Assembly: GCA_021740645.1 (NCBI GenBank)
Contig: JAIOZL010000002.1
Coordinates: 62,001 to 126,000, forward strand
Origin: Bacteroidales bacterium
GTDB lineage: Bacteria > Bacteroidota > Bacteroidia > Bacteroidales > JAADJA01
Reading direction: 5' to 3'
Length of the DNA stretch: 64,000 nucleotides
The first letter of the stretch is position 1. Each line of letters begins with the position of its first letter. The notes under the pieces are model-generated. The model was not told the origin of the DNA. It searched no databases and worked only from the letters and a program-made list of their open reading frames with translations. The position numbers were made by a program, and so were the translations under genes. Below are positions 1 to 36,348 of the stretch, one piece after another.

Positions 1-431
1 AAGAAAATACCAATAAAAACTTCAAACTTGGAAAAGAGGCAATTGAAATGCTGGATGTTAGGGATACCAGGCTAATTGCTCCTTATCCTGTGGATCATAA
101 AGATATTCCCATTTATTTAAATGCTTGCGATGTATTATTATTTACTTCTTATAAGGAAGGATCTCCGAATGTTATCAAAGAGGCACTTGCATGTAATACT
201 ATAATTGTTACAACACCAAGTGGAGATATTCTGGAACGTATAAAAGGTGCAAATAATGTTTTTGTTGCTGAATTTAGTGCTAAGAGTGTTTGTCAGAAAA
301 TTATGGAAGCAATTAATTTTCAAGAAGAGCCAAACTCAAGAGATATTGTTAAAAACGAATTAGATGAAAATGTCATTGCCAGGAAATTAATCTCGATCTA
401 CGAAACTCATTTGAGAGATGAAGTTAGTTAA
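1..431 (+). CDS. Glycosyltransferase family 4, C-terminal part (cut by left edge)
   Basis: The reading frame is open from the first complete codon (base 3) to a TAA at 429-431, so the gene begins outside the window; the ATG at 48 is an internal Met. What remains is the end of a GT-B nucleotide-binding domain: an E-x7-E motif (EGSPNVIKE, in KEGSPNVIKEALACN) that binds the sugar-nucleotide donor, a TTPSGDILERI strand-turn, and a helical tail. This is typical of GT4 retaining glycosyltransferases that build surface polysaccharides in the cytoplasm. The gene overlaps the next by 14 bp, so the two are probably co-translated. The donor and acceptor sugars cannot be read from this fragment. Confidence 0.8.
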   Translation, partial: ENTNKNFKLGKEAIEMLDVRDTRLIAPYPVDHKDIPIYLNACDVLLFTSYKEGSPNVIKEALACNTIIVTTPSGDILERIKGANNVFVAEFSAKSVCQKIMEAINFQEEPNSRDIVKNELDENVIARKLISIYETHLRDEVS

Positions 432-21858: not shown

Positions 21859-22824
21859 CTAATTTTTAAGTTTCCAAACAGAATTCATATAATATTGACG
21901 TTTATCGTAAAAGTTCCTTACTACTTCAAAACCAGAATTATTTGCCAGGTCCCTGATCATTTTCATATCATACTTTTGCGACATTTCCATGTAAATAGTT
22001 TCCCACTTATCAAATTCAATGGTTTGGTTCAGGTCATGAATATAAACCGATTGCTTATCCTTACTCACTAAATAGCTTTTTGCCGTGCCGGTTTGCGGGT
22101 CATAAACCTCATGATGATCAAACTTTAATAATTCAAAATCAGCCCCCAGATCTTCATTAATACGGCGCAACAGATTCAAATTAAAGGATGAGGTATAACC
22201 ATACGGGTCATTATATGCTTTCAGGATTACCTCCGGGTCTTTCTTCAGGTCAAAACCTATAAACAGCATGTCGTCAGGGTTCATGATTTCTTTTAACTGT
22301 TTGAAAAACCGGATTGACTCGGGCTCATTAAAATTACCAATGTTTGAACCAAGAAATAAAAGAATTTTAGGCGTTTTGCCGGTTTGGCTTAATTCATTTA
22401 TTAACTGAAAGTAGTCACCTACTTTTCCGTTAACATCCAGGGTAGGTAATTCAGTCTCCAATTCATTGACCAGGTCAACCACCGCTTTCTCAGAAATATC
22501 AACAGGGATGTATTTTAAATTGCTGTTTCGTTGAAGAAAATAGTTTAATAATATTTTTGTTTTCATTCCATCACCTGCGCCCAATTCCACCATCTCAAAA
22601 GGTTTTCCGTGTTGCGAAAAAACTTCATATATAAGGTGTTTTTGATTCAGGAATATCTCCTCTTCACAACTAGTAAGATAGTACTCTGGCATTTGCATTA
22701 TTTTCTGAAATATCCTGCTTCCTTTTGCATCATAAAAATACTTTGATCCTAAATGTTTGGGCATAGAGGTAAGCCCATTGGATATATCTATTGCAAATTG
22801 GGATAGTTTTAATTCAGTTTCCAT
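21859..22824 (-). CDS. egtD: L-histidine N-alpha-methyltransferase EgtD
   Basis: 321 aa, the usual length. The SAM-binding motif ELGAGDGMKTKILL, the TSCEEEIFLN stretch near residue 53 and a late IYMEMSQKYD match EgtD, which trimethylates histidine to hercynine, the first step of ergothioneine synthesis. It follows egtB by 5 bp, so the two are co-transcribed. The egtC and egtE partners of the mycobacterial pathway are not in the window. If the pathway is complete here, it would use a cysteine-type EgtB and an unlinked lyase, or make a related sulfur metabolite. Confidence 0.88.
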   Translation of the reverse strand: METELKLSQFAIDISNGLTSMPKHLGSKYFYDAKGSRIFQKIMQMPEYYLTSCEEEIFLNQKHLIYEVFSQHGKPFEMVELGAGDGMKTKILLNYFLQRNSNLKYIPVDISEKAVVDLVNELETELPTLDVNGKVGDYFQLINELSQTGKTPKILLFLGSNIGNFNEPESIRFFKQLKEIMNPDDMLFIGFDLKKDPEVILKAYNDPYGYTSSFNLNLLRRINEDLGADFELLKFDHHEVYDPQTGTAKSYLVSKDKQSVYIHDLNQTIEFDKWETIYMEMSQKYDMKMIRDLANNSGFEVVRNFYDKRQYYMNSVWKLKN

Positions 22825-22829
22825 ATGCT

Positions 22830-23978
22830 TTATTTTGCTAACCTTATTCCATTAAATTGCCAACCCATATTCGGATGGAAAAAATTCCGGTATGTTTTCC
22901 TGCTATGGTTTTCACTTGTCGCAACGGAGGAACCTCTTAACACTTTTTGATTGACCATAAATTTTCCATTGTATTCTCCCACGGCACCTTTATCCTTTTT
23001 ATACCCTGGGTAGGGTAAATAAGCACTTTCAGTCCATTCCCAGCGTTTACCCCAGTCAAATTGATCAGATGCTGCTTCCCATTCAAATTCTGTAGGTAAT
23101 CGGCAACTTTTCCACTGGGCAAAAGCAGCAGCTTCGTAATAGGAAATATGGGTTAAAATATGATCAGGGTTCAGCTTTTTAGGCCCTGCAAGCGTATATT
23201 GAAACCATTGTCCATCCTGTTGAAACCAGTACCAGGGCTTTGTAATTTTATTTTCCTTTAGCCAGTTAAGGGCTTCCTCGTGCCAGAATTCAAACCTATG
23301 GTATCCGTTATTTTCTATAAATTCGAGGAACTCGCCGTTCCTGACAAGATCCTTTCTTATCTCATATGGCTGAAGATATACTTTATGGTGAGCTAACTCA
23401 TTGTCATAACAAAAACCCTCACCCTGATAGCCAATTTCATAGATATTGCTTTCCACTGAAACGAATTCCTTATAGGTATCTTCACCATCCTCACAAAGAG
23501 CATTTTCATTATAGGCAGGCAAAAGTGGGTTGAGGCTGAAGGTATATTTGAGATCGGTAAAAAATAGTTCCTGATGCTGTTGCTCATGATTTATTCCAAG
23601 CAATACCAGGTTTTCCAGGATTGAATCAAGCTTATCGCTTTTTAAAAGTATTTGCATATGCTTATCTATATAATGCCGGTATTGATAAACCTCCTCCACA
23701 GTTGGCCTGCTTAAATCTCCTCGACTTTGCCTTGTGGTCCTCTCTCCCAGACTATTATAATAACTGTTGAATAAGAAATTGAACCGGGGGTGGAACTGTT
23801 TATATCCCGGGAGATATTGTTTTAATATCATCTCCTCGAAAAACCAGGTTGTGTGGGCTAAATTCCATTTTGGCGGACTTATAAAAAAGGTGGGCTGCGG
23901 GATGTAGTCTTCTATTTTCAAAGGTTTGCATATTTCCTCAGAATAGCTTCTTGTTTTTGAATAAAAATCAAATAACAT
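22830..23978 (-). CDS. egtB: EgtB-like hercynine sulfoxide synthase (DinB + FGE-type)
   Basis: 382 aa. An N-terminal DinB-like four-helix part carries the likely iron-binding histidines: His42 in NLAHTTWFFEE and His131/His135 in NHEQQHQE, the HxxxHxE pattern of EgtB. The C-terminal FGE-sulfatase-like domain has WTESAYLPYPGY, LRGSSVAT and a final MGWQFNGIRLA. EgtB couples hercynine to a thiol using O2 and iron. The enzyme is somewhat shorter than mycobacterial EgtB. O2 dependence implies at least occasional oxygen exposure, which contrasts with the AFOR gene at 34474. OvoA is less likely because it is fused to its own methyltransferase. Confidence 0.87.
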   Translation of the reverse strand: MLFDFYSKTRSYSEEICKPLKIEDYIPQPTFFISPPKWNLAHTTWFFEEMILKQYLPGYKQFHPRFNFLFNSYYNSLGERTTRQSRGDLSRPTVEEVYQYRHYIDKHMQILLKSDKLDSILENLVLLGINHEQQHQELFFTDLKYTFSLNPLLPAYNENALCEDGEDTYKEFVSVESNIYEIGYQGEGFCYDNELAHHKVYLQPYEIRKDLVRNGEFLEFIENNGYHRFEFWHEEALNWLKENKITKPWYWFQQDGQWFQYTLAGPKKLNPDHILTHISYYEAAAFAQWKSCRLPTEFEWEAASDQFDWGKRWEWTESAYLPYPGYKKDKGAVGEYNGKFMVNQKVLRGSSVATSENHSRKTYRNFFHPNMGWQFNGIRLAK

Positions 23979-26780: not shown

Positions 26781-27761
26781 ATGGCAAAAGTACTTGGAAT
26801 AGGAAATGCGCTGGTAGATATAATGACCAAACTAAGAAGCGATGAAACCCTTTCAATGTTTAATCTTCCGAAAGGAAGTATGCAGCTTGTAGATGCCGAA
26901 TTTAGCGACAAGGTTAATAAAGGAACGGACCACCTCGCTAAAACAATTGCTTCAGGAGGATCAGCCGCAAATACCATTCATGGGTTAGCAAAAATGGGCA
27001 TAAGCACCGGCTTTATCGGAAAGGTGGGCCATGATGATCTTGGAAGGCTCTTTGAAGAGGACATGAAGGCCAGTGGGATTAGTCCGTTATTGTTAAAAAG
27101 CAATACCCCTTCAGGAAAAGCGATGGCCCTGATAAGTCCTGATTCGGAGCGGACCTTTGCTACTTTTTTGGGAGCTGCCGTGGAGCTTTCTGCCGGCGAC
27201 CTCACAGATAGTTTATATAAAGACTATGATTATTTTCATATTGAAGGATACCTGGTTCAAAACCATGAATTAATTGAACAGGCGGTTAGGCTGGCAAAGA
27301 AGAATGGCCTTAAGGTATCTCTTGATATGGCAAGCTATAATGTAGTAGAAGATAACCTTGAGTTTCTTCAGAGGATCGTGAAAGAATATGTTGACATTGT
27401 TTTTGCCAATGAAGAAGAGGCAAAATCGTTTACGGGTAAAGAGCCGGAAGAAGCGATCCATGTATTTGGTGAGCTTTGCGAGATTGCAGTTGTCAAAATC
27501 GGGAAGGAAGGTTCATTAATAAAAAATGCCGGCAAGCTAACAAAGGTAAAGGCTATTAATGCGAACAGCATTGATACAACGGGAGCAGGTGATCTTTACG
27601 CCGCTGGTTTTTTGTATGGACTGATTAATGGCCATTCTTTTGAGTTGTGTGGTAAGGCAGGTTCAATTCTGGCTGGCAGGACCATTGAAGTTATTGGGCC
27701 AAAAATGACAGATGAGAATTGGACAGAGGTTAGAAAACTCGTAAGTGAGCTCAAGAATTAA
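26781..27761 (+). CDS. PfkB-family sugar/nucleoside kinase, adenosine kinase-like
   Basis: 326 aa. The N-terminal part starts GIGNALVDIM. SGGSAANTIHGLAKMG and IGKVGHDDLG form the PfkB signature 1, and SIDTTGAGDLYAAGF contains the anion hole and catalytic Asp (DTTGAGD). This branch is usually annotated adenosine kinase (adenosine + ATP to AMP + ADP), but ribokinase-like substrates cannot be excluded. A TACATTTG box at 26642-26649 could start a long leader. It precedes the EF-G paralogue by ~118 bp; whether they share a transcript is unclear. Confidence 0.82.
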   Translation: MAKVLGIGNALVDIMTKLRSDETLSMFNLPKGSMQLVDAEFSDKVNKGTDHLAKTIASGGSAANTIHGLAKMGISTGFIGKVGHDDLGRLFEEDMKASGISPLLLKSNTPSGKAMALISPDSERTFATFLGAAVELSAGDLTDSLYKDYDYFHIEGYLVQNHELIEQAVRLAKKNGLKVSLDMASYNVVEDNLEFLQRIVKEYVDIVFANEEEAKSFTGKEPEEAIHVFGELCEIAVVKIGKEGSLIKNAGKLTKVKAINANSIDTTGAGDLYAAGFLYGLINGHSFELCGKAGSILAGRTIEVIGPKMTDENWTEVRKLVSELKN

Positions 27762-27822
27762 TACTTTTTTTGCTTTAAGCAAGAATAACAACACTTTGTG
27801 TAGTAATTGTTAAGATTTTTTA

Positions 27823-27830
27823 TATTTTTG
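27823..27830 (+). promoter_or_regulatory. Promoter -7 box (TATTTTTG) of the EF-G paralogue
   Basis: TATTTTTG fits TAnnTTTG and lies 49 bp before ATG 27880. A TTTG at 27795-27798 is 24 bp upstream, a little farther than usual, so confidence is moderate. Confidence 0.4.
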
Positions 27831-27879: not shown

Positions 27880-30012
27880 ATGAAGGTTTACCAAACAAAA
27901 GACATTCGGAATATTGCACTCGTCGGAAGTGCTAAATCTGGTAAGACCACCCTTGCTGAAGACATGATGTTTGAAGGTGGTTTAATCAACAGGCGGGGTT
28001 CAGTAGATGATAAAAATACAGTCTCGGATTACAGGCCAATTGAACTGGAAAGACAAAACTCAGTTTCATCCACTGTTTGTTTTGCTGAATTTAACGGCAG
28101 GAAAATCAATATAATTGATAGCCCGGGATTTGATGACTTTGTAGGAGAGGTAATTGCCTCCATCAATGTTGTTGACACTGCAGTAATTCTGTTGAATGCC
28201 CAAAATGGTATCGAAGTAGGTGCTGAAATTGCCTGGATGCATACCATGAAAAATAACAAGCCCGTTATTTTTGCGGTCAATCACCTTGAACATGATAATT
28301 CAAACTTCGATGAACTTATCACTCAAATGAAGTCTTTGTTTGGAAACATAGCTGTGTGTCAGTACCCTGTGAATATAGGGCCAGGATTTAATTCTGTTAT
28401 CGACCTTCTTAAAATGAAAATGTTTAAGTTTCCTGAGGGTGGAGGTAGTGCTGAAATAGTTGACATTCCTGATAGCGAAAAGGATAAAGCCGAAGAAATG
28501 CAGGCTACCATGATCGAAGATCTTGCATCAAGTGATGAAGCCTTAATGGAGAAGTTTTTCGAGGCAGGAACCCTAACTGAAGAGGAGATGCGCGAAGCGG
28601 TAAAGGTTGGTCTGAGGGATAGGGAGCTTTTCCCCGTAATGTGTATAAACACCAAACATAATATGGGGGTGAACAGGCTTATGGAGTTTATTACCAATAA
28701 TGCACCCTCACCAGATGAAATGCCAAAAGTGAAGGCATTAAATGATAAAGAAATGACTTTTAATCCGGCCGAACCTGTTTCTGCTTTTGTTTTTAAAACA
28801 TCTATTGAGCCTCACTTCGGTGAAGTTTCCTTTTTTAAATTAATGAATGGGGAAATTGAAGAAGGAACTGACCTTATCAATTCCAAGTCAGGCACAAAAG
28901 AGCGTTTAGGGCAATTATTTGCAGTTTATGGGAAAAATCGAGAGAAGCTTACAAAAGTAGTTCCCGGAGATATTGCAGCCTCCGTGAAATTAAAAGATAC
29001 AGCTACAAATTCTACCTTAACTACTTCAAAAAACTCGAAGGATATTATACCTCCTATTGAATTTCCTGAACCGAAATTCAGGGTAGCTGTTAAGGCATCA
29101 AATTCAGGTGATGAAGAAAAAATGGCTGGAATTCTTAACTCCTTGCATAAAGTTGACCAAACTCTTGTCATCCAGTATTCAAAAGAGTTAAAGCAATTGA
29201 TTTTAGGCGGACAGGGTGAATTGCACTTAAACATTACCAAATGGCAAATTGAAAACCTCGAAAATATTCCTATCGAGTTTATTTCACCTAAAATTCCATA
29301 CAGAGAAACCATTACCAGGTCAGCTAAAGCGGATTACAGACATAAAAAGCAATCGGGAGGTTCAGGACAGTTTGGTGAGGTACACATGATGATAGAGCCT
29401 TATGTTGAAGGGATGGAGTGGACCACAGAATTTCCTGTCAGAAAATCAGAAGAGATTCAACTTGACTGGGGCGGAAAACTGATCATGAACAACTGTATTG
29501 TTGGAGGTGCCATTGATGCCAGGTTCTTGCCGGCTATCCTGAAAGGGGTTATGGAAAAAATGGAAGAAGGCCCCTTAACAGGCTCATATGCCCGTGACAT
29601 TGTATTTTATGTTTATGATGGGAAAATGCACCCGGTTGATTCGAATGAGATTTCTTTTAAACTTGCCGGACGTAACGCTTTCCGCGAAGCCTTTAAAAAT
29701 GCAGGCCCTCAAATTCTGGAACCTGTTTATGACGTTGAAGTACTGGTTCCTGAAGAAAGAATGGGAGACGTAATGACCGACCTCCAGGGAAGAAGAGCCA
29801 TCATTATGGGAATGGGCCGCGAAGGCAAATATCAGAAAATCGAAGCAAAAGCACCTTTAGCCGAAATGAATAAATATGCTACTGCATTAAGTTCTATAAC
29901 AAGTGGAAGAGGGATGTATTCAATGAAATTTGCTGAATATACCAATGTTCCGCCGGATGTACAGGTTCAATTATTAAAAGACTACGAAGCTTCACAAAAC
30001 GAAGAAGACTAG
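27880..30012 (+). CDS. EF-G paralogue with altered GTPase motifs (EF-G2-like)
   Basis: 710 aa with all five EF-G domains. The P-loop GSAKSGKT (residues 16-23) is kept, but the other G motifs are changed. Switch I reads RQNSVSS instead of RGITIxS. DTPGHVDF is DSPGFDDF, so the catalytic His is Phe84. NKxD is NHLE (134-137). Domain IV is canonical (QSGGSGQFGEVHM, HPVDSNEISFKLAGRNAF), so ribosome translocation contacts look intact. This matches Bacteroidota EF-G2; the Bacteroides protein is reported to support slow translation without GTPase activity. That function is transferred by homology. A terminator follows at 30029-30070. Confidence 0.88.
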   Translation: MKVYQTKDIRNIALVGSAKSGKTTLAEDMMFEGGLINRRGSVDDKNTVSDYRPIELERQNSVSSTVCFAEFNGRKINIIDSPGFDDFVGEVIASINVVDTAVILLNAQNGIEVGAEIAWMHTMKNNKPVIFAVNHLEHDNSNFDELITQMKSLFGNIAVCQYPVNIGPGFNSVIDLLKMKMFKFPEGGGSAEIVDIPDSEKDKAEEMQATMIEDLASSDEALMEKFFEAGTLTEEEMREAVKVGLRDRELFPVMCINTKHNMGVNRLMEFITNNAPSPDEMPKVKALNDKEMTFNPAEPVSAFVFKTSIEPHFGEVSFFKLMNGEIEEGTDLINSKSGTKERLGQLFAVYGKNREKLTKVVPGDIAASVKLKDTATNSTLTTSKNSKDIIPPIEFPEPKFRVAVKASNSGDEEKMAGILNSLHKVDQTLVIQYSKELKQLILGGQGELHLNITKWQIENLENIPIEFISPKIPYRETITRSAKADYRHKKQSGGSGQFGEVHMMIEPYVEGMEWTTEFPVRKSEEIQLDWGGKLIMNNCIVGGAIDARFLPAILKGVMEKMEEGPLTGSYARDIVFYVYDGKMHPVDSNEISFKLAGRNAFREAFKNAGPQILEPVYDVEVLVPEERMGDVMTDLQGRRAIIMGMGREGKYQKIEAKAPLAEMNKYATALSSITSGRGMYSMKFAEYTNVPPDVQVQLLKDYEASQNEED

Positions 30013-34473: not shown

Positions 34474-36348
34474 ATGACTACAGCCTTAAAAGTGTTAATG
34501 ATAGAAGCCGGAAGTTCGTTTTACAGGATAAACAGGTATAAACTGGGCGACTTTTGGGGGCCGGTCGACCTGGGGTTGCACCTTGCCGGAAAACATAATA
34601 GCCTGAACATTGGTGTAGGATTGCTTGCCGGATCAATTTTCCCGGGCTCAAACCGATTGATTGTAAACGGTTTTTCACCTTGCTGGGGTGGCTTCTTTAT
34701 TTCCAGCATGGGTGGGGCAGGATTGGTTTTTGATAACCTGGGTATCAATATGATCTCATTGATCGGACGGGCACCTTCCCCTTCTGTTCTTTATTTAAAC
34801 AGGCATCACGGCGAAGAGGTCGAGGTAAAGATTGAACCTGTCGATCTTTGGAAAGTTTGGGATTCAGGACGTAAGGGCACCTATGGGATGATGGAATATA
34901 CCTACCAGAATTTTGGGGATAAATTTTCAAACACACCAAGAATTTTAGCAACGGGTCCTGCCTCAATATCCACAGATTTTGGGGCTATTGGTTCTGCCCC
35001 GATTAAAAAGGAAAAAATTTCTAATGTTGATACCTGGGCTGGTAGGGGTGGTTTCGGATCAAAAATGCTACAACAACATAATATTGCAGCTATTATTTAT
35101 GGAGGGACCTATATCGATGAAGATTTTCGCGACCGGAAAGTAGCAGATGTTTGGTTCGAGGACAAGTATCAGAAAAAGATGGCTGCAAAAGACATTGAGG
35201 CAACAACCAAATACCGTTTTGATCCAAACTTTGAAACCGGTGGAACATTTGGGGTGAATTATGCCACCCTTGGTGGAAGGGTTATCGCATTTAATTATAA
35301 GTCGTTTGAATGGCCGGAACAGAAACGATTGGCAATGCATCAAAATCTTATTGTGGAGCATTATCTGAAACAATTCAATGAGGAAACAATTTCAAAAAAG
35401 CAACAGTTCAATTGCGGGGAACCTTGTGTAGCCGTTTGCAAAAAAATGAACGACCACTATAAAAAGGATTATGAACCCTATCAAACCATGGGGCCTCTCA
35501 GCGGTATCTTTGATCAGCGGGCGGCAGAAAAGGTAAATCATCATGCAGATATGCTTGGATTTGATGCTATTTCTGTAGGGGGTGTCATCAGCTGGTTGAT
35601 GGAGTGCCTGGATAGAAAATTATTATTGCCTGAGGAATTGGGTGTAAGTAAACTCCCGGTATTCACTTTGGATAATTTCAAAGTTGAAAAGGATTCAAAA
35701 CATAATTCTGAAATAGCCATTGAACTGCTGAATTCTATTATCCATAAAAAAGGCCTTGTAAATTTAAGCGAAGGAGCCCGAAAGTTTGGAAGAAGGCTTT
35801 CACGGAAAAAGGGGGTGAACCTTCTTGACTTGTTTGTATTTGCTTCCTTTGGCCGAAATGGTTGGATGGTTCCTAACCAATACTGGACACCGGGCGTATT
35901 GTCACCCATGCCCATCATGGGCAAGTATTATATGAACTATGGCAATGAATTTATTCCGCCGCGTGAACTTGGGCATCAAAATGCGGCCAGGTTCAATAAG
36001 GAATTGATCCTCGATAACCTTGGGTTTTGCAGGTTCCATCGAAATTGGGCAGAAGAAATGATGCCAGAAGTAATAGGTGAGTTATTTGGATTGGAGGAAA
36101 AGTTTCTGAATAATATATCACATACGGCTAACCGGATCAATAGCCGCAATGCCTCCGTATTCTGGGAATCGAAAAGGAACTTTGAACTAATTCATTCCTT
36201 TCTAAAACGTCAACATGAAGTACTTGGGGCTTCAGGAAAGGAATTGGATCATTGGCTTCAATATTTCGACAAAGATCAAAAGGCTGCTGCAATTGATTAC
36301 TGGTACGAAATCCATAAAGGGGTACATGAATCGCTAAGGGAGTTTTAG
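34474..36348 (+). CDS. Aldehyde:ferredoxin oxidoreductase family protein (tungstopterin)
   Basis: 624 aa, normal AFOR length. N-terminal patches SMGGAGLVFDNLG and ATGPASISTDFGAIG match the pterin-binding domain; WAGRGGFGSKM is the conserved RGGxG loop. The 4Fe-4S ligands are Cys314, Cys318 and Cys322 (CGEPCVAVC) with Cys519 in LGFCRFH as the fourth. The first spacing is C-x3-C instead of the C-x2-C of Pyrococcus AFOR. The enzyme oxidises aldehydes to acids and reduces ferredoxin, with W or Mo at a bis-pterin site. Its substrate is unknown. TATCTTTA at 34448-34455 is a possible -7 box. Confidence 0.85.
   Translation: MTTALKVLMIEAGSSFYRINRYKLGDFWGPVDLGLHLAGKHNSLNIGVGLLAGSIFPGSNRLIVNGFSPCWGGFFISSMGGAGLVFDNLGINMISLIGRAPSPSVLYLNRHHGEEVEVKIEPVDLWKVWDSGRKGTYGMMEYTYQNFGDKFSNTPRILATGPASISTDFGAIGSAPIKKEKISNVDTWAGRGGFGSKMLQQHNIAAIIYGGTYIDEDFRDRKVADVWFEDKYQKKMAAKDIEATTKYRFDPNFETGGTFGVNYATLGGRVIAFNYKSFEWPEQKRLAMHQNLIVEHYLKQFNEETISKKQQFNCGEPCVAVCKKMNDHYKKDYEPYQTMGPLSGIFDQRAAEKVNHHADMLGFDAISVGGVISWLMECLDRKLLLPEELGVSKLPVFTLDNFKVEKDSKHNSEIAIELLNSIIHKKGLVNLSEGARKFGRRLSRKKGVNLLDLFVFASFGRNGWMVPNQYWTPGVLSPMPIMGKYYMNYGNEFIPPRELGHQNAARFNKELILDNLGFCRFHRNWAEEMMPEVIGELFGLEEKFLNNISHTANRINSRNASVFWESKRNFELIHSFLKRQHEVLGASGKELDHWLQYFDKDQKAAAIDYWYEIHKGVHESLREF

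Follow-up and report, generated by a model that had tools for sequence, protein, structure and literature searches.

The gene at positions 27,880 to 30,012 (forward strand) of the window, a 64,000-nucleotide stretch of a Bacteroidales contig, is the fusA2 gene of a Bacteroidota EF-G2, a known factor of which it encodes a well-conserved variant. It starts with ATG and runs through an intact frame of 710 aa. The orthology of the protein, the states of its motifs, an insert in its domain IV and the presence of canonical fusA in the same genome were each established in this analysis. The product is probably a spare protein-synthesis factor that does not burn GTP and, to judge from its sequence, one with a rebuilt nucleotide pocket that combines a conserved lysine with an unusual base-recognition motif. 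We place a probability of about three in four on the explanation as a whole, whereby Bacteroidota EF-G2 would be a slow ribosomal translocase in which the nucleotide is probably structural, hydrolysis goes unused and the domain IV insert aids release. EF-G2 offers a natural means of testing whether translocation is driven by GTP hydrolysis, and the clade to which the window protein belongs provides a second, more altered natural version with a changed cation site, a changed base motif and a shorter insert.

Identity and distribution of the EF-G2 gene

The window protein was assigned by profile search, in which it scored 1093.3 bits over its full length against the NCBIfam model NF058620 (EFG2_Bacteroid; cut-off 1000). 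Against TIGR00484, the model of canonical EF-G (EFG I), the score was 499 bits, below the cut-off of 659.4, and the RGITI, DTPGH and NKxD motifs were absent. The best solved-structure sequence was the 718-aa chain of 7uvp/8dmf, EF-G2 of Bacteroides thetaiotaomicron (fusA2, BT2167), with an identity of 56.9% over 708 columns; identity to either canonical EF-G of the same genome was approximately 31%. The window protein was modelled with AlphaFold2 (pLDDT 84.1, pTM 0.80), and when the predicted structure was used as a Foldseek query, 8dmf was the top match (E 3.9e-92, TM 0.90, 56% identity). The title of that entry reads 'Cryo-EM structure of the ribosome-bound Bacteroides thetaiotaomicron EF-G2'; in the sequence file, the 7uvp/8dmf chain bears the name 'Tetracycline resistance protein TetQ'.

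Phylogenetic trees were built with FastTree, some nodes of which were weakly supported. In two runs, the clade of the window protein (96 rows) and that of 7uvp (38 rows) were sisters, the joint group of 134 rows receiving a support of 100 and standing apart from EF-G I. Among named loci, the closest come from metagenome-assembled Bacteroidales. In addition to family model and fold, the window protein shares with B. thetaiotaomicron EF-G2 the lack of the catalytic His, the GKT of the P-loop, Ser at the position of the switch I Thr, an insert at the same place in domain IV and the presence of a canonical EF-G encoded at another site of the genome. The Bacteroides EF-G2-type identity proposed in the initial annotation is backed by the family model, the insert, the tree and the fold alike.

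The same annotation had reasoned that, if the genome held no second, canonical fusA, this gene would have to be the housekeeping factor. Besides the window gene, two canonical EF-Gs scoring over the TIGR00484 cut-off were found in the genome, which disposes of that objection. One lies on contig 11 in a str-type cluster, flanked by ORFs that we read as rpsL- and rpsG-like; the other, on contig 27 (L010:2866-4938), scored 966 bits against TIGR00484 and lies outside the str cluster. A tetracycline-protection-like protein is encoded on contig 82 (L011:3083-5068); it possesses DTPGH and NKTD motifs and, with 547 bits against a cut-off of 775, falls below the tet cut-offs.

By our own reading of the match list, 56 of the 60 genomes sampled in the order, that of the window included, carry an EF-G2 orthologue (53 near full length and three partial). 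No orthologue was found in G004, G018, G044 or G055, and the partial protein of G009 was left out of further comparison. Across the phylum, NF058620 matched 54 of 148 genomes at E <= 1e-200. In a sample of 395, the scores of the matches listed showed a gap, with none falling between 727 and 566 bits; three proteins of the lower-scoring group (L178-L180) were found to be EFG II members that lack the insert of domain IV. The 206 loci with a match above 480 bits yielded 199 distinct proteins. One copy of the window protein and two proteins shorter than 600 aa were left out, and the remaining 196 were combined with the window protein and 7uvp to give 198 EFG II rows: 195 core EF-G2 rows, among them the window protein and 7uvp, and the three outgroup proteins. 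The start of L152 was out of frame, and its P-loop was not scorable. A set of 22 canonical EF-Gs comprised the two of the window's own genome and 20 picked from about 60 lower-scoring matches in the same order. By our reading of the coordinates, EF-G2 and a canonical-type EF-G are arranged divergently, within about 4 kb, in nine of the 60 genomes of the order (G006, G007, G014, G024, G031, G033, G038, G043 and G056), an arrangement in which regulation of the two could be coupled.

The nucleotide pocket of EF-G2

The motifs quoted in the initial annotation (RQNSVSS, DSPGF with Phe84, NHLE, QSGGSGQFGEVHM and HPVDSNEISF) are present letter for letter. The statement that all key GTPase residues had been lost proved too strong, given that Lys22, Thr23, the Mg-ligand Ser61, Asp80, Gly83 and Asn134 are retained. 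The P-loop, described there as intact, does keep GxxxxGKT, but the Asp19 of canonical EF-G is replaced by Lys. It reads GSAKSGKT (residues 16 to 23; 27,925 to 27,948, on the forward strand as are all other parts of the gene), with Lys19 encoded at 27,934 to 27,936; residues 16 and 25, Gly and Leu, match the residues given for EFG II in the P-loop region (Margus 2011, PMC3150367). Switch I (G2) reads RQNSVSS (residues 58 to 64; 28,051 to 28,071), with Ser61 for the Mg-ligand Thr and Gln59 for Gly. At G3, DSPGF (residues 80 to 84; 28,117 to 28,131) has Phe84 at the position of the catalytic His, while at G4, NHLE (residues 134 to 137; 28,279 to 28,290) replaces NKxD. The G5 region, CIN (residues 255 to 257; 28,642 to 28,650), contains no SAx.

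All 22 canonical EF-Gs possess D19, G59, T61, H84, K135 and D137, indicating that the changes are real and belong to the EF-G2 paralogue. Among the 195 core EF-G2 rows, Lys22, Asp80, Pro82 and Gly83 were each present in every one, Gly21 and Thr/Ser23 each in 194 and Asn134 in 193; residue 61 was Ser in 189 and Thr in five. At G4, conversely, Lys135 was retained in 33/195 and Asp137 in 138/195. As far as conservation can tell, the phosphate and Mg site of EF-G2 is strongly constrained, and the catalytic and base-recognition parts are altered, a combination that suggests a nucleotide that is held and not turned over. The near-invariance of Lys22, Asp80, Gly83 and Ser/Thr61 (the last in 194/195) likewise argues for retained nucleotide binding.

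Comparison with B. thetaiotaomicron EF-G2 revealed differences in several of these motifs: YGYSV at G2 where the window protein has RQNSV, DCPGS where it has DSPGF, NQLD where it has NHLE, and Gly19 in place of Lys19. YGYSV is the G2 sequence given for Bacteroidetes EFG II by Margus 2011 (PMC3150367). YGYSVF was found in 10 of 161 proteins of our first EF-G2 sample, which leaned to relatives of the window protein. The loss of RGITI with Ser in fourth place, as in RQNSV, agrees with EFG II as portrayed in that publication; NKxD, however, is reported there as conserved in EFG II (as a conserved motif and not as a subfamily definition), whereas the window protein has NHLE (Margus 2011, PMC3150367).

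Within the 33-member clade of the window protein, Asn134, His135, Leu136 and Glu137 were each found in 33/33, and synonymous changes had occurred at all four codons: AAT (17) and AAC (16) for Asn, CAT (16) and CAC (17) for His, five different codons for Leu, and GAA (23) and GAG (10) for Glu. Fixed residues accompanied by synonymous change indicate that the motif is held by selection and is not drifting; the reading of NHLE as decay was rejected on the same codon variation. By parsimony on the tree, Asp137 changed to Glu approximately four times, with two reversals.

Lys19 is equally persistent, with Lys or Arg at this position in all 95 scorable members of the 96-member clade (Lys in 93, Arg in two). 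Overall, parsimony gave about six gains of Lys/Arg19 and two losses. Translational GTPases are reported to hold a monovalent cation with the P-loop Asp and the switch I Gly, and a Gly in the EFG II P-loop is noted in the same source (Atkinson 2015, PMC4342817). The window protein has Lys at the former position and Gln at the latter. In P-loop NTPases more widely, the site between the alpha and gamma phosphates is described as filled by K+/Na+, a Lys/Arg finger or water, the finger usually activating hydrolysis (PMC6310460). That a positive charge was gained repeatedly where the cation is held suggests that the Lys/Arg19 side chain might replace K+, in the window clade and in around five further independent gains, though we regard this substitution as doubtful. 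Gly59, the second cation ligand, does not co-vary with residue 19, which speaks against it: by our own count among the 20 commonest pairs listed, Gly59 was lost in 93/103 Lys/Arg19 rows and in 45/88 Gly19 rows, and on the tree residue 59 changed 45 times versus seven for residue 19. The two losses of the charge also count against it, as does the usual activating effect of such fingers, which would instead favour a slow GTPase. A literature search of partial coverage found no paper on Lys/Arg19 in EF-G2, and the novelty of the observation is accordingly provisional.

Domain IV, hydrolysis and translocation

Conservation within EF-G2 is highest in domains IV and V (mean identities of 67.3% and 61.1%, from 3000 random pairs); a domain IV better conserved than domains I to III is also reported for EFG II by Margus 2011 (PMC3150367). 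Loop I of domain IV, QSGGSGQFGEVHM (residues 491 to 503; 29,350 to 29,388), is invariant at 11 of 13 columns across 38 aligned sequences and nearly so at H502. The conserved loop II, HPVDSNEISF (residues 584 to 593; 29,629 to 29,658), shows H584, V586, D587, S588, N589 and F593 to be invariant across the same number of aligned sequences.

Between the loops, an insert of 18 aa (residues 512 to 529; 29,413 to 29,466) was identified by comparison with the str-cluster EF-G of the same genome, relative to which it is the only internal insert longer than 10 residues; the initial annotation had missed it. The stretch from GEVH to IVGG was found to measure at least 45 residues in 195/195 core EF-G2 proteins (155 at 45, 36 at 54 and four others at 46 to 58), versus 24 to 28 residues in 22/22 canonical EF-Gs. 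All three outgroup EFG II proteins class as insert-free, L178, for example, with 25 residues. The long form of the insert defines one clade of 38 that contains 7uvp, and the insert of B. thetaiotaomicron EF-G2 is 27 aa versus 18 aa in the window protein. In Han's 2023 work, a 26-residue region is reportedly responsible both for the lack of GTPase activity and for release from the ribosome, and we presume the domain IV insert to be that region. If so, the window version does without nine residues of the B. thetaiotaomicron insert. Contrasting the two proteins could separate the change that removes GTPase activity from the change that permits release. A literature search on the 26-residue region of EF-G2 found nothing.

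The catalytic His84 was found in 0/198 EFG II rows compared with 22/22 canonical EF-Gs. Chain 9k0z, which we take to be of the mycobacterial EF-G-2 type, possesses DTPGY at G3 and Gly at P-loop position 19. Thermus thermophilus EF-G-2 (1WDT/2dy1), another EFG II protein, has DAPGY, with Tyr at the catalytic His position. On these sequences, loss of the catalytic His predates the EF-G2 family. Thermus EF-G-2, 30% identical to the window protein in the fold alignment, is nonetheless reported to bind and hydrolyse GTP, and EF-G-2 of Mycobacterium smegmatis, from another phylum, is reported to bind guanine nucleotides without ribosome-dependent GTPase activity (Margus 2011, PMC3150367). The deduction that a protein without the His must be without GTPase activity was for this reason rejected. 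The initial annotation had proposed the same energy-sparing translocase as in Bacteroides: the EF-G2 identity and the canonical fusA support this, but its step from missing His to missing hydrolysis is unsafe alone. B. thetaiotaomicron EF-G2 is reported to translocate without GTP hydrolysis (Han 2023, as cited in PMC12775393 and PMC10294740), and the hydrolysis-free case for the window protein follows from its orthology to that factor. We infer that the window protein would behave likewise and would still bind nucleotide.

The explanation that we favour is one in which EF-G2, an EFG II paralogue, would bind the ribosome via intact domains III to V and move tRNA and mRNA slowly. A Mg-nucleotide would most likely be held as a structural ligand, but with no catalytic His and with changed switch I and cation sites its hydrolysis would go unused. 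The family-specific insert of domain IV would in turn help EF-G2 to leave the ribosome without hydrolysis. Counting against this explanation are the nine-residue shortfall of the window insert, the lack of a BT4338-type site upstream of the gene (see below), the reported GTP hydrolysis by the His-less Thermus EF-G-2 and Lys19 itself, which could also be a sign of activity.

Residual GTPase activity is conceivable since Thermus EF-G-2, a reported GTP hydrolyser, also lacks the His. In a slow but genuine GTPase, residue 84 and the ribosome would together permit hydrolysis as in the Thermus protein with its DAPGY (1WDT; cited as a GTP hydrolyser by Margus 2011, PMC3150367), perhaps with the aid of Lys19, given that Lys/Arg fingers between the alpha and gamma phosphates are usually activators (PMC6310460). 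The near-invariant P-loop, Ser61 and DxPG of EF-G2 would suit such an enzyme. We nevertheless consider it unlikely: B. thetaiotaomicron EF-G2, of the same family and carrying its insert at the matching position, reportedly does not hydrolyse GTP, the M. smegmatis protein is described as lacking ribosome-dependent GTPase activity (PMC3150367), and the window protein lacks the canonical Lys135, Asp137, Gly59 and P-loop Asp. With NHLE at G4 and a degenerate G5 (CIN), the residues that canonically confer base specificity are gone, which could instead mean that guanine specificity has been lost, with another NTP, ppGpp or no ligand bound, and that the protein acts independently of nucleotide. This too is improbable in view of the nearly invariant phosphate and Mg site, with Asn134 in 193/195, and of the constancy of NHLE amid synonymous change, which argues for a retained ligand and a defined pocket.

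Two further readings dispute the identity or the function of the gene altogether. The 'TetQ' label on 7uvp might point to a tetracycline-type ribosomal protection protein, an identity that was rejected as very improbable: the window protein scored 239 bits against NF012153 (cut-off 775) and 121 against Tet(Q) (cut-off 1425), and the title of 8dmf names EF-G2. The divergent G motifs could also be expected of a decaying, functionless duplicate. With a 710-aa frame intact, orthologues in 56/60 of the genomes sampled in the order and synonymous variation around fixed residues, this pseudogene reading was likewise rejected, and its probability is negligible.

Upstream region and neighbouring genes

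Directly upstream of the EF-G2 gene on the same strand, across a gap of 118 bp, lies a gene for a PfkB-family sugar/nucleoside kinase (26,781 to 27,761), which met no NCBIfam cut-off. It is a recurrent neighbour: among 122 loci with at least 1200 bp of upstream sequence, the window included, we counted a PfkB homologue on the same strand and no more than 300 bp upstream in 46. Kinase and EF-G2 are possibly co-transcribed and a functional pair.

A weak promoter-like arrangement was found on the forward strand at 27,795 to 27,830, consisting of TTTG (27,795 to 27,798) and TAnnTTTG (27,823 to 27,830) with a spacer of 24, elements that resemble a promoter of the Bacteroidota type. The pattern TTG-17..23-TAnnTTTG was present in 47 of 173 EF-G2 upstream regions versus 1.15 expected from mononucleotide shuffles; by our count, the spacer between the window elements is one base too long to fit it.

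In B. thetaiotaomicron, fusA2 is reported to be driven by BT4338 during carbon limitation (PMC6989115). Over the 300 bp that precede the window gene, the best match to the published motif covered 9 of 14 positions, and no BT4338-type site was found. A starvation role for the window gene is borrowed by analogy from B. thetaiotaomicron and is accordingly tentative. At a threshold of at least 11 of 14 positions, the motif occurred in 7/25 upstream regions of the long-insert clade (2.45 expected from mononucleotide shuffles, as for the following figures), in 7/54 of the E137 group to which the window protein belongs (4.3 expected) and in 3/100 of the remaining regions (5.05 expected). These counts suggest a weak BT4338 signal in the Bacteroides-like clade and lend no support to one in the window.

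Elsewhere in the window, an EgtB gene scoring over its cut-off adjoins a gene for an EgtD-like methyltransferase (283 versus 291 bits) at 21,859 to 23,978, together an ergothioneine pathway pair. At 34,474 to 36,348 lies a relative of archaeal GAPOR (356 bits versus a cut-off of 1300), with a flavin reductase-like ORF beside it on the opposite strand.
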